Below are positions 1 to 11,714 of a DNA stretch of 39,589 nucleotides, in pieces; positions within the stretch are counted from its first letter, which is position 1, and every line of letters begins with the position of its first letter. The translations under genes and the position numbers were made by a program. The notes beneath the pieces were generated by a model, which searched no databases, had not been told where the DNA came from, and saw only the letters and a list, made by a program, of their open reading frames with translations. The DNA is from a virus. Location of the stretch: positions 1 to 39,589 of IMG/VR virus record IMGVR_UViG_3300010885_046850; one strand, given 5' to 3'.

Positions 1-270
1 CCAATGCCTGACAAGGATGCAAAGGGTAGCATGAAAAAGTGGGAGACTAAGCAGGACTTGTTGCAAGACCTCTACACAGCCCCCACAAACATCATGATTG
101 CAGGAACGGCTTGGGGTGCATACCAAACTCTAACCGAACACTTGGACTACTTCTCCAATCCGCGCAAGGATAACACAGAGGCTATTGCTATCAAGGCTAG
201 TGGCATGGACGACATTCACAATGCTAAGAAAAGCAATCTACTCACTATTGTAAAGTCGGTGTTAGTCTAA
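1..270 (+). CDS. DUF932-family protein, C-terminal part (cut by window start)
   Basis: The reading frame is open from base 1 and stops at 268-270, so the gene begins before the window. The visible 89 residues contain the pattern GTAWGAYQTLTEHLDY followed by a basic, Asn-rich stretch. This resembles the C-terminal part of DUF932 (TIGR03299, phage/plasmid-like proteins), where a G-T-x-x-G-x-x-N-A-x-T-E-x-x-D-H segment is typical. The biochemical role of DUF932 is not established; members are common in phages and plasmids near replication or small early genes. The M at position 4 is unlikely to be the true start, because the preceding codon is in frame and the domain is incomplete. The family call rests on a short conserved segment. 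Confidence 0.6.
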   Translation, partial: PMPDKDAKGSMKKWETKQDLLQDLYTAPTNIMIAGTAWGAYQTLTEHLDYFSNPRKDNTEAIAIKASGMDDIHNAKKSNLLTIVKSVLV

Positions 271-2805: not shown

Positions 2806-3111
2806 ATGCCTACACCGTCAGAGAAAGTATCCAAGTTTCTAGGAGAAAATCTGTCCAATAGCCGTATCAACGAAGTATCCATCGCGTCAGATTTGGCGCA
2901 TGAACCCTATGATGTGCAGGCTAGATTCATGAACATCGCCCTTGCCTACATCTACCTAATGTCCTACACAGGAAGTGATGTGGCAGTACGCATGGATTTG
3001 ATTGAATTGGCTAGCCTATGCAGGAACATTAGGGAATTAGCGATTGACTATCTCATCACGCCAGAGCCATTCGGCGTGGCGGGATACGAAGAATACTCTA
3101 CTATGCTATAA
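2806..3111 (+). CDS. Hypothetical helical protein (101 aa), last gene of rightward block
   Basis: ATG 2806 has TAGGAG 8 bases upstream, and the gene has its own extended -10 candidate, so it may be transcribed separately. The protein is mostly helical (LAHEPYDVQARFMNIALAY; MDLIELASLCRNIRELAIDY) without a recognised motif. A strong intrinsic terminator follows 68 bases after its stop. Adjacent to the putative origin, so a replication-linked role is conceivable but unsupported by sequence. Confidence 0.65.
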   Translation: MPTPSEKVSKFLGENLSNSRINEVSIASDLAHEPYDVQARFMNIALAYIYLMSYTGSDVAVRMDLIELASLCRNIRELAIDYLITPEPFGVAGYEEYSTML

Positions 3112-3178
3112 TATATACCTAGACAAACAGACAAGGACCTCTGGATAGTTTAATCCACTTCCTTTTATAGTCTGTATG

Positions 3179-3210
3179 GCCCCCCGGTTGCGGAGCCGGG
3201 GGGCTTTCTA
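3179..3210 (+). terminator. Intrinsic terminator of the rightward block
   Basis: Perfect 9-bp GC stem GCCCCCCGG (3179-3187) / CCGGGGGGC (3196-3204), 8-nt loop, then TTTCTA. It ends the rightward gene block before the origin-like region. Confidence 0.85.
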
Positions 3211-3241
3211 TTGCCCAAATATCTAACCGCTACCGCATGGC

Positions 3242-3270
3242 ATATAGCTCCTTTACGAATAGAGCTATAT
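3242..3270. repeat. Perfect inverted repeat with TTTACGA loop
   Basis: ATATAGCTC (3242-3250) and GAGCTATAT (3262-3270) pair perfectly around an 11-nt centre containing TTTACGA, the motif also found at 441-447 and 472-478. Lies between the terminator and the DnaA-box array. Could be a protein-binding operator or an RNA hairpin. Confidence 0.6.
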
Positions 3271-3279
3271 TTACCTGCA

Positions 3280-3333
3280 AAGTGGAGGGAGTCATGTGTT
3301 TTACCTAGGTAAAATAGGTACCAAGTGGAGGGA
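3280..3333 (+). repeat. Direct repeat AAGTGGAGGGA (two copies) flanking a palindrome
   Basis: AAGTGGAGGGA occurs at 3280-3290 and 3323-3333. Between the copies is the perfect 16-bp palindrome TTTTACCTAGGTAAAA (3299-3314). The symmetric layout looks like binding sites for a dimeric regulator or initiator; inference only. Confidence 0.6.
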
Positions 3334-3344
3334 AATACACGAAA

Positions 3345-3389
3345 TCGGGCACATTTATATGATTTTTCCCATATATTTTATATGCCCGA
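3345..3389. repeat. Inverted repeat TCGGGCA / TGCCCGA around an AT-rich core
   Basis: TCGGGCA at 3345-3351 and TGCCCGA at 3383-3389 enclose 31 almost pure A/T bases. Part of the dense repeat structure leading into the DnaA-box array. Confidence 0.5.
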
Positions 3390-3419
3390 CCCGCGTGTTA
3401 TAGATCATATTACGAACAC

Positions 3420-3575
3420 CCTGTGGATATCCTGTGAATATTGTGTATAAACCCCCATTTACCTGTGGATAACCTGTGGATAACATGTTAATAACCTGTG
3501 GATAAGGGGCGGCTAATACTACCTATAACCTTAATCTATATTCTATTATGTATTTTATTATATATTTACTGCATT
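3420..3575. other. Putative replication origin: phased DnaA-box-like array plus AT-rich tract
   Basis: Exact TGTGGATAA 9-mers (reverse of the bacterial DnaA box TTATCCACA) lie at 3464, 3475 and 3497, with a degenerate TGTTAATAA at 3486, so four units stand exactly 11 bp apart. Upstream are TGTGGATAT 3422, TGTGAATAT 3433 and TGTGTATAA 3442 (22 bp before 3464). From about 3510 to 3575 the sequence is nearly all A/T, as expected for an unwinding element. The site lies where genes switch from rightward to leftward. No dnaA gene is in the window, so host DnaA or an unseen phage protein would bind. Confidence 0.75.
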
Positions 3576-3856
3576 TATCTGTGGAAATGTCCGCTAGATG
3601 AGTTCAATAGCAGTCTAATCTTGGATATATCTTCTGCTACTCTATCTACAATCTCATTAGTTTCCATATTGAGACCATATTCTTTTCTCATCATCTTTCT
3701 ATCTAGTTCTGCAGCTCTATTGGATGCAGATAATAGTAATCCAGATAATACAATAGCCTCTAGAGATAGTATCATAGTTAATAGACCAAAGGGGAAGGGT
3801 TCTACTTTTACTATTATCCATCCCGCCCACCATACTACATGCAATAAAAGGAACAA
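3575..3856 (-). CDS. DUF1003 membrane protein (start uncertain)
   Basis: The protein has a first membrane segment (FLLLHVVWWAGWIIV), a second (FGLLTMILSLEAIVLSGLLL) and then SASNRAAELDRK, the typical DUF1003 pattern of SLEA-hydrophobic-S-x-NR-x-x-x-x-DR, and a C-terminal amphipathic helix. DUF1003 proteins are small two-pass inner-membrane proteins of unknown role. The boundary given starts at a TTG (3856), but homology reaches further upstream: residues EKKAEYVSDIVAIWSGKP are in frame up to 3934. The only in-frame ATG, 3941-3943, is followed by an isoleucine codon and then a TAA at 3935-3937. So either a non-standard start, a sequence error or a crippled gene is involved. Confidence 0.6.
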   Translation of the reverse strand: MFLLLHVVWWAGWIIVKVEPFPFGLLTMILSLEAIVLSGLLLSASNRAAELDRKMMRKEYGLNMETNEIVDRVAEDISKIRLLLNSSSGHFHR

Positions 3857-4015
3857 AGGCTTCCCTGACCAAATAGCAACAATATCAGAGACATACTCTG
3901 CTTTTTTTTCTATTTTGTTCAGAATTTTCTTTATTTAGATCATCGCCTTTTTATATAGATTAAGAGTAAGTTTTACCTCACTCCCAATACTATTTTACCA
4001 GACTAATAATCTTAA

Positions 4016-4846: not shown

Positions 4847-5119
4847 TTAGACTACCTTCCCATATAGGTACTGATAAACCATAATAAGATATTCTTCGCC
4901 ATCTTCTTCAACTTCCGCCCCAATATTGGTGGCAAATACAACATGGTCGCCTACTTCGATTGTATCAGGCACACCAGCGCCCTTAGACATTACGATGCCA
5001 CGAGGTAGCTCCTGCTCGAAATCGGATGTGGCGATATACAAACCAGATGTGGTTGTCTTCTCATCATCTTCTACTTTATCTTTTTTGATCAATACATGAT
5101 CTCCGAGTGTTTGAATCAT
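4847..5119 (-). CDS. groES: GroES-like co-chaperonin (Cpn10)
   Basis: 90 residues, the usual Cpn10 size. It begins IQTLGDHVLIKKDKVEDDEKTTTSG, matching the GroES start (hxPLxDRVhVKxxxxExxT-xGGhhhP), and contains PRGIVMSKGAG and IEVGDHVVFATNIGAEV, equivalent to the xGxVxAVGxG and VKVGDxVLFxKYxGxE segments. The mobile loop corresponds to TTTSGLYIATSDF; it has Ile where GroEL-binding IVL is usual. Phage co-chaperonins (T4 gp31 type) replace host GroES to fold capsid proteins. It abuts an HslV-like protease gene, suggesting a protein-quality unit. Confidence 0.88.
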   Translation of the reverse strand: MIQTLGDHVLIKKDKVEDDEKTTTSGLYIATSDFEQELPRGIVMSKGAGVPDTIEVGDHVVFATNIGAEVEEDGEEYLIMVYQYLYGKVV

Positions 5120-5694
5120 TATTCTCCTATAGTTAGTACGTCAAATGGTGCTGAACAGGTCGTAGAATGCTTTGCAGCGACCTGTAGCGCACCGTTAATT
5201 TGTTCTGCTAGATGTTTGCTACCATATATATTTTTATACGCTGACAAAGCTCCTACAGCGTATTCGGATGCTGACCCGATTGCTGCATAATTATCGGCAT
5301 ATTCAATGGCAGCAAGATCATATTCAATCTCAAAGATTCTGCCTTCTATGCCGACTATCAAGCCAGACACTGAGGGTCCGATTTCTTCCTTATGGTCGAA
5401 CATTTCAAACTGATTTTCTTCCAAAAAGGATTTCAATTGTGGGCAGAATATCGTATTCATGAATTCATCTAAGTCTCCGTCTAATTCCGGAACATATGCA
5501 GGTGGCTCAAATCCGTACTGGATTAACTTGCCAAACCTAATACTACCTGCATATCCGAATAGATACTGATATCTTACGAATACCTTAGGGTGTGCAGATG
5601 TAGCAATGAATCCACCATTGTCTGATACCGCTCTATCCCCGCCCATGACAGTAATTTTACTGATTGGATCACCGATGGCGACAATACAAGTCAT
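5119..5694 (-). CDS. HslV/proteasome beta-like Ntn-hydrolase
   Basis: 191 residues beginning M-T-C-I-V-A-I, so removal of Met would expose Thr1 as in HslV (TTIVSVR). An Asp in GGDRAVSD (residue 20) and a Lys in HPKVF (residue 37) fit the proteasome Asp17 and Lys33 positions. FGYAGSIRFGKL matches the GxAGxxxD/G segment, and AIGSASEYAVGALSAY matches the G-S-G-x-x-x-A-x-G-A loop. These point to an active threonine peptidase of the HslV type, forming a ring in the cytoplasm. No HslU/ATPase partner is in the window, so it may work alone or with a host unfoldase. Its stop overlaps the groES start by one base. Confidence 0.82.
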   Translation of the reverse strand: MTCIVAIGDPISKITVMGGDRAVSDNGGFIATSAHPKVFVRYQYLFGYAGSIRFGKLIQYGFEPPAYVPELDGDLDEFMNTIFCPQLKSFLEENQFEMFDHKEEIGPSVSGLIVGIEGRIFEIEYDLAAIEYADNYAAIGSASEYAVGALSAYKNIYGSKHLAEQINGALQVAAKHSTTCSAPFDVLTIGE

Positions 5695-8422: not shown

Positions 8423-8727
8423 TAGTTATCCTTGTCAAAAGCCTGCACTGGTACTCCACGAACTACTAATGTAGTGATAGCAATATCAGATTGTGCAACG
8501 GCAGTCAAGCGATGCTGACCATTACGCAAAACTCCATCTGCATCAAAAATAATTACTTTACCATTTAGTTGCCAGTCTCCTTTGGCAAGATCAAGGATAT
8601 AACGATTAACTCGCTCCTGCTTAATCTCGCGGTGTTTAGCATTATTGTTTAGATATTCATTTGCCTTATCCGCGCCAATTGTTTCTACCTTAACGGAAAG
8701 ACCAAAGTCTTCTGGGTTACTAATCAT
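8422..8727 (-). CDS. ParB/Srx-domain-like protein with NGQHRL motif
   Basis: ATG 8727 has AAGGAG close upstream and is preferred over the longer frame from 8760. The 101 residues contain REIKQERVNRYILDLAKGDWQLNG, then VIIFDADGVLRNGQHRLTAVAQS and VVRGVPVQAFD. The G-Q-H-R-L segment is the signature of small ParB/sulfiredoxin-fold proteins common in actinobacterial phages, usually annotated ParB-like nuclease domain. Activity is not proven for this subgroup. It overlaps the deaminase and the small gene upstream (ATGA), so the three are coupled. Confidence 0.7.
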   Translation of the reverse strand: MISNPEDFGLSVKVETIGADKANEYLNNNAKHREIKQERVNRYILDLAKGDWQLNGKVIIFDADGVLRNGQHRLTAVAQSDIAITTLVVRGVPVQAFDKDN

Positions 8728-8885
8728 TCTGTCTCCTTGATATTGTTGTGGCACCCGCAATTACATACAAGTGAACGTTTATAGAAATCACATCTTTCGT
8801 GCATAACAGGCATGGCATCTCCAATTCTATCTTTATTTTTATTCAAAAAATACCAGCCGCCTTTGCACCACCGACTTATTTGCAT
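8724..8885 (-). CDS. 53-aa Cys-rich small protein with CxCxCH motif
   Basis: Below a 60-residue cutoff but well supported: ATG 8885-8883 with AGAGG upstream, one base after the SLOG-like gene's stop, and its TGA overlaps the next ATG. The product starts MQISRWCKGGWYFLNKNKD and ends with VCNCGCHNNIKETE preceded by HERCDFYKR. The C-x-C-x-C-H motif matches that of the 48-residue product at 7524. Probable metal binder; function unknown. Confidence 0.6.
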   Translation of the reverse strand: MQISRWCKGGWYFLNKNKDRIGDAMPVMHERCDFYKRSLVCNCGCHNNIKETE

Positions 8886-11328: not shown

Positions 11329-11340
11329 TTTATCTCCTCG

Positions 11341-11637
11341 TGGAGTAGGCGGGAATCGAACCCGCGTCCAATTGTTATTTTCAATAAATGGTATTACAGC
11401 TATTTTTTTGTATTGCTATTGTATTACAGGTATTTCAATCTGACTTTTCTGTTCCCGCGCAAGTCAGTAGCGTGGCGATTACGCTGCTACAGAAATTCTA
11501 ATGAATGCTGAAAGCTTGTTGCGTAGTGCTGATTCGGTAATAAATGTGCCGATTATTTGTTTTGTGCCGTTTAATAAGTCTGCACAACTTAAGCTGCCTT
11601 TCATTGCTTCCAACAACTGTCGAAACCGATCTACCCC
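11341..11637 (-). ncRNA. ssrA: tmRNA (ssrA), phage-encoded
   Basis: On the minus strand the RNA starts GGGGTAG at 11637 and its 3' part ends CCGCCTACTCCA at 11341; the tRNA-like acceptor GGGGTAG/CTACTCC pairs fully with one G-U. The 5' end has the tmRNA hallmark GATCGGTTTCGACAG, and the 3' end a T arm GCGGGTTCGATTCCCGC. CCA is not encoded. After CAAATAATC, the usual context before the resume codon, an open frame begins GGC (11550-11548) and stops at TAA 11481-11479. The encoded tag is 23 residues, begins GTFITES and ends RISVAA, so it is longer than the common 8-15 but ends in the expected small hydrophobic residues. tmRNA rescues stalled ribosomes and tags products for proteolysis. Confidence 0.9.
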
Positions 11638-11641
11638 TTAG

Positions 11642-11714
11642 CGGCTCTGAAGGGAAATTGAACCCTCTCTGCATCCTTGACAGGGATGTGTGCTAACCTT
11701 TACACTACAGAGCC
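11642..11714 (-). tRNA. tRNA-Asp (anticodon GTC)
   Basis: Acceptor GGCTCTG pairs with CAGAGCC. D arm is GTGT...GCAC. Anticodon stem CATCC/GGATG holds CTGTCAA with GTC. Discriminator is G, as usual for Asp. CCA is not encoded. The T arm GAGGG-TTCAATTT-CCCTT has an 8-nt loop, one more than normal. It ends only 4 bases before the tmRNA, so both are cut from one transcript. Confidence 0.88.

Follow-up and report, generated by a model that had tools for sequence, protein, structure and literature searches.

A DnaA-box array at a convergent gene junction in a Stanwilliamsviridae-related phage fragment as a candidate origin for host DnaA

Replication origins built on DnaA boxes and the injection stop signal of phage T5 are both already known kinds of element. 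In the B. subtilis arrangement of such an origin, the box word TTATCCACA faces the trios, and a maximum of the cumulative GC skew in a bacterium is a sign of the terminus. Rules for the basal unwinding system (BUS) of bacterial oriC have been described (PMC8287927), and E. coli DnaA prefers pairs of boxes that are 2–3 bp apart (PMC11317965). The annotated injection stop signal of T5 (AY543070, 9140–10149) lies in a gap where repeat-side genes converge with unique-side genes, and the repeat boundary (10219) falls in the same gap. DnaA boxes have been named as a feature of this signal (PMC13250531), which carries two DnaA-box pairs 3 bp apart (9437/9449 and 9498/9510), inverted repeats, and the repeats TGTGCAAATCCGAC, all facing one way. 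In Paradiddles, one of the Streptomyces phages of cluster BE (Stanwilliamsviridae), read pile-ups served to map the ends of a 10,778-bp direct terminal repeat (DTR) (PMC5764925). In a literature search of incomplete coverage, we found no paper describing a DnaA-box element in cluster BE phages.

The window, by which we mean the whole stretch of DNA analyzed, is a 39.6-kb IMG/VR fragment without end repeats. Its terminase large subunit is 58–64% identical, over 93%, to the terminases of cluster BE phages, and its gene order is that of Gilson (Cas4-like exonuclease, RuvC, glycosyltransferases, terminase, tRNAs, tmRNA, WhiB, and thioredoxin). By sequence comparison, the window, from a phage of lytic type, is thus assigned as a fragment with relatives among the Stanwilliamsviridae. 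The helicase, primase, SSB, and polymerase genes of Gilson lie upstream of the shared block, in a region beyond the window. The likeness to the terminal-repeat junction of BE phages (Paradiddles, Karimac, and Gilson) comprises the related terminase, the gene order, and a DnaA-box site in a homologous gap; however, all seven boxes of the window share one orientation and include an 11-bp core, whereas the BE isolates carry two or three, which are often inverted.

Seven 9-mers resembling TGTGGATAA, as read on the + strand, span positions 3422–3505 and comprise three perfect copies, two with a single mismatch, and two with two mismatches. As DnaA boxes, all lie on the − strand. The first, at 3422–3430, has the + strand letters TGTGGATAT, one mismatch from the box word, which is TTATCCACA as read on the − strand; it is followed by boxes at 3433–3441 (TGTGAATAT, two mismatches), 3442–3450 (TGTGTATAA, one mismatch), 3464–3472 and 3475–3483 (both perfect TGTGGATAA), 3486–3494 (TGTTAATAA, two mismatches), and 3497–3505 (again perfect TGTGGATAA). 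Exact 11-bp steps join the last four (3464, 3475, 3486, and 3497), the upstream three are partly out of register (steps of 11 and 9, then 22 from 3442 to 3464), and an extra weak box with two mismatches is present at 3580. The best four 9-mers at period 11 total two mismatches in the window, versus 11–15 in 20 third-order Markov copies of it. The array positions and 11-bp steps given in an earlier note on this DNA are thus exact and far above chance, and the window holds a cluster of DnaA boxes beyond chance, as expected of an origin.

A GC-rich spacer, GGGGCGG (3506–3512), leads from the boxes to a tract at 3514–3573 that has the lowest duplex stability, by nearest-neighbor energies, among all 39,529 60-bp stretches of the whole window. 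The AT-rich tract that had been noticed after the array is therefore real, and its place next to the boxes is that of an unwinding element, for which it is our candidate. In all window boxes, TGTGGATAA points toward this tract and TTATCCACA points away from it. Elsewhere in the gap, a strong GC-rich, terminator-like hairpin (3178–3205, + strand; DNA fold z −3.4) ends the + genes, and a repeat search returned an imperfect inverted repeat, TCGGGCA...TGCCCGA (3345–3389; fold z −2.3). Two oriented TTACGA motifs lie on the + strand at 3253–3258 and 3410–3415; the sequence surrounding the former, TTACGAATAGAGCTATATTT, is also found in L160, the nearest relative that we found (8 of 300 shuffles score as well). 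Such motifs are possibly packaging, promoter, or phage-initiator sites, and their direction with respect to the terminal-repeat side is the same in 27 of 27 instances across the eight gaps counted (the window, L160, L121, L122, L278, L280, L284, and L286).

The gap itself is flanked by genes that converge on it, with the + genes stopping at 3111 and the − genes at 3575. The final + strand gene (2806–3111) is an ORF of no family with a 38% identical homologue at the same position in L160, and the last gene of the − strand, right-arm block (3575–3856) encodes a DUF1003 membrane protein (Pfam E 7e-13), which also has a homologue at the same L160 position. The C-terminal piece of a DUF932 protein, our terminal-repeat-side marker, is encoded at 1–270 (+ strand); it is a homologue of Paradiddles gp003, is 44.6% identical to BE1 phages, and matches Pfam DUF932 with an E value of 2.9e-4, which is under the curated cut-off. 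Since the DUF932 gene of Paradiddles (gp003, 1404–2417) lies inside the DTR, the left of the window corresponds to the repeat side and its right to the right arm. The flip in gene direction reported in the earlier note is real, but it is convergent, a detail which that note did not contain. GC skew also switches at the gap, from about +0.12 to −0.15, and its cumulative curve has a maximum near 3.1 kb rather than the minimum of an origin. Because this maximum has the sign of a terminus and because skew follows gene strand, as it does along the Gilson genome, we rejected skew as origin evidence, and the skew check that had been suggested for an origin came out negative.

In the cultured Stanwilliamsviridae, a perfect box is found 6.4–12.7 kb from the right end in all 13 of 13 complete genomes. 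In 10 of the 13, this right-end site has two perfect boxes within 24 bp, against 0.07 genomes with any such pair expected by chance. The right DTR copy of Paradiddles begins at 122,709, and its DnaA-box cluster lies just outside the DTR. In six Boydwoodruffvirinae with long DTRs (Paradiddles, Karimac, Wofford, Yaboi, Riptide, and Mildred21), exactly 60 or 62 bp separate the end of the final perfect TGTGGATAA from the start of the DTR that follows it; the intervening tract is 63–72% A+T and ends with GTGTGTAATG (GTGTGTAATA in Paradiddles). In Karimac and Paradiddles, the boxes adjoin the 60 bp that rank lowest or second lowest in stability within the ∼30-kb right arm, and no top-ranked unstable tract was found at the boxes of Gilson, Wakanda, Kenrey, or the environmental contig G002. 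In Paradiddles, Karimac, and T5, convergent blocks flank a noncoding gap located at the boundary of the terminal repeat; in the window, a fragment, the terminal repeat is unseen.

Loccivirinae repeats are short (766–1773 bp in Kenrey and Wakanda, and about 767 bp in Gilson), and the boxes of these phages occupy a 1.4–1.8-kb gene-free gap; in Kenrey, Gilson, and Wakanda, they are about 5.8–6.6 kb away from where the DTR begins. From the boxes onward, Wakanda and Gilson share a noncoding block that is 80% identical over 178 bp, the top match among their right-arm alignments, and DNA related to this block is present in 43 Streptomyces phage records. The Loccivirinae block showed no fold excess and positions 2900–4000 of the window gave no Rfam match, and a structured RNA was rejected on these grounds. 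As a separate observation, the box-side noncoding block (L301, 340–700) has a 71% identical, 150-bp copy without boxes (MK620900.1, 3428–3577), which adjoins the DNA polymerase gene of the Streptomyces tectiviruses Forthebois, WheeHeim, and RickRoss.

Among environmental relatives, in which the junction was placed by marker genes, many from freshwater have paired boxes at the junction of the window. The word TTATCCACAGGTTATCCACAGCCTGTGGA occurs in 22 viral contigs, 18 of which belong to a single family context, and several have the element between homologues of the left and right blocks of the window. The 120-kb contig G002 carries a paired-box version at 55 kb, at its skew flip, and 12 long environmental relatives contain 69 perfect boxes, versus 6 for the reversed word. 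Very large clusters, exceeding that of the window, were also seen several kb upstream of DUF932 in two other relatives from freshwater, L164 (1591–1850, about 14 boxes) and L163 (1762–1935, about 8 boxes), such that certain genomes may carry two or more DnaA sites.

L160 matches parts of the left block of the window at 95–98% identity, and its genes follow the same order on both sides of the junction, but its gap contains no boxes. The unstable tract is homologous between the two (local alignment score of 42, with 0 of 300 shuffles as good), whereas the array showed no homology in L160 (score of 18, with 136 of 300 shuffles as good). The array was either gained by the window lineage or lost by L160. 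Since L160 keeps the tract and has no array, we conclude that the box array is an exchangeable module beside an older unstable tract, and that the boxes are not essential in every member. Thus, the comparison with relatives proposed in the earlier note had a divided outcome: the array is absent from the nearest relative, but boxes are retained at this junction in more distantly related phages. In place of boxes, L160 carries, at 8500–8760, three direct repeats (GATTACGAA...TTACTTTGA) and a palindrome (AAAATCGGGT...ACCCGATTTT), which are perhaps the sites of another initiator.

The 11-bp step had been read as helical phasing that would align bound DnaA on one face of the DNA. In relatives, the same-strand box spacing peaks at 11 bp (36 of 116) and 12 bp (32 of 116), with values of 0, 1, and 0 in the controls, such that the two steps are used about equally. 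Given the preference of E. coli DnaA for gaps of 2 or 3 bp between boxes (PMC11317965), the 11-bp step, with its 2-bp gap, is the usual spacing of DnaA dimers, and the notion of phasing as a special design is not upheld.

We propose that the array is a host-DnaA-binding element that acts as a phage replication origin, a reading to which we give an even chance. Its basis is the boxes, their spacing, the unstable tract, the convergent genes, the family-wide site near one end, and the lack of a DnaA gene in relatives. A profile search that was positive in 13 of 14 control genomes detected no dnaA gene in 21 relatives (12 long environmental relatives and 9 complete isolates). According to this proposal, positions 3422–3505 would serve as a platform for the host initiator DnaA where the terminal-repeat-side and right-arm genes converge. 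DnaA dimers or filaments would occupy the boxes with their 2-bp gaps, the filled boxes would promote melting of the adjoining tract at 3514–3573, and the phage helicase, primase, and polymerase, encoded beyond the window in relatives, would then load and start replication. The binding of host DnaA to the array, which the origin reading shares with that of a stop signal, is predicted with considerable assurance. The suggestion that the phage captures host DnaA is probable, given consensus boxes 2 bp apart, the family-wide sites, and no DnaA gene in these relatives. That the array is an origin is plausible from its boxes, unstable tract, and family-wide site, but it is unproven, gains no support from skew, and has to accommodate a nearest relative without boxes, a box polarity opposed to that of B. 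subtilis, and the missing top-ranked unstable tract at the boxes of Gilson, Wakanda, Kenrey, and G002.

Compared with a bacterial oriC, the locus shares consensus boxes, a same-orientation array, 2-bp gaps, and a GC-rich spacer followed by a very unstable, AT-rich tract. It differs in that the array resides in a phage, between convergent genes and with no dnaA or dnaN alongside, in that its boxes are turned the other way with respect to the tract, and in that the skew has a maximum instead of a minimum. With respect to the BUS rules, the box polarity is the reverse of the B. subtilis arrangement. A Bacillus-type basal unwinding system to the right of the array was accordingly rejected, since the trio-like CTAATACTA after GGGGCGG is on the wrong side for this polarity; the ATACTACC part of this stretch also occurs in the box-less L160. 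A Rep-iteron plasmid origin fits poorly: no rep gene is present at the array, whose neighbors encode DUF1003 and proteins that match no family, and the only plasmid match was short and lay over the boxes.

Computation cannot choose between an origin and its main rival, a T5-like stop signal, although we consider the latter rather unlikely. Under such a reading, the gap would be the border at which uptake of the first DNA (that of the terminal repeat) halts, with the boxes bound by host DnaA or some other host component until the pre-early genes act. The junction resembles the T5 signal in having convergent blocks around a long noncoding gap, which in Paradiddles and Karimac lies at the edge of the terminal repeat, as well as DnaA-box pairs (3 bp apart in T5), oriented repeats, an inverted repeat, and a terminator; within the window itself, DnaA-box pairs are found together with repeats and inverted repeats. 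Moreover, as in T5, the distance of the Stanwilliamsviridae boxes from one end is about 5–10% of the genome length. We know, however, of no two-step entry in cluster BE phages. T5 belongs to an unrelated phage family with unrelated repeats, and its boxes lie inside the repeat, whereas those of BE phages are just outside it. A stop signal does not require a top-ranked unstable tract next to its boxes, and none is seen at the T5 boxes, whose role in entry is itself only a proposal (PMC13250531).

The exact 60- or 62-bp distance and the conserved cut sequence (GTGTGTAATG or GTGTGTAATA) in the six Boydwoodruffvirinae, together with the single orientation of the TTACGA motifs, would also suit a packaging or terminus element, in which the terminase cut that generates the terminal repeat would be marked by the boxes together with the 60-bp tract. 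We regard this as improbable, in view of the several kb that separate the boxes from the DTR start in Kenrey, Gilson, and Wakanda, the inversion of the window module relative to the genes, and the fact that the words are the exact DnaA consensus at the spacing preferred by DnaA. A similarly low probability attaches to a DnaA sponge, whereby multicopy phage boxes would titrate host DnaA and halt host replication. While the seven boxes of the window, the larger clusters of L163 and L164, and the example of E. coli datA, a natural titration site with few boxes (PMC5835720), speak for a sponge, most relatives have just two or three boxes per genome at the site, and titration requires neither a fixed position near the end nor an adjacent unstable tract. 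Least credible is a transcription terminator formed by a box palindrome at the convergent junction, with DnaA irrelevant, which we judge highly improbable. In 18 of the 22 environmental matches, TTATCCACAGGTTATCCACAGCCTGTGGA is followed by an AT- or T-rich run, giving a terminator-like hairpin (L122, fold z −3.5), but tandem boxes at 11 or 12 bp are unnecessary for termination, and the window has a separate GC-rich terminator at 3178–3205. The window array itself folds into no hairpin (fold z +1.45), and a terminator formed by it was rejected.

A broader and doubtful idea joins the fixed distance of the module from the terminal-repeat edge (60 or 62 bp in six genomes) with the T5-stop-signal layout. 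In this scheme, host DnaA would either initiate replication right at this edge, with firing of the fork also restoring the second long-repeat copy, or gate the stepwise entry of DNA, with the window array as an expanded, inverted, and exchangeable version of the module. If the element is an origin, then host DnaA initiates replication at a defined spot beside the terminal repeat in a large family of lytic phages of actinobacteria, cultured Streptomyces phages among them, and two questions become testable in isolates, namely how long terminal repeats are duplicated and why the T5 stop signal has DnaA boxes.

Several minor observations concern the genes near the array and the occurrence of similar arrays elsewhere. 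The DUF1003 gene (3575–3940, − strand) seems to run on upstream in another frame across an eight-A run near 3903–3910, which is possibly a frameshift or an assembly error. Neighboring GroES-like (Cpn10) and HslV/proteasome-like genes lie at 4847–5694, and a tmRNA gene with a long predicted tag is found beside tRNA-Asp at 11340–11714. Single-protein scans with the proteasome-like protein and with the product of 2806–3111 gave almost no matches. As a DNA pattern, four boxes at 11-bp steps matched 35 viral contigs, none of which carries the neighborhood genes of the window, bar one weak match. The same pattern matched 37 bacterial contigs (L240–L276), none titled Actinobacteria; the bacterial contigs with these exact four-box, 11-bp arrays include several Babeliales/TM6, Binatia, and Hydrogenothermaceae.
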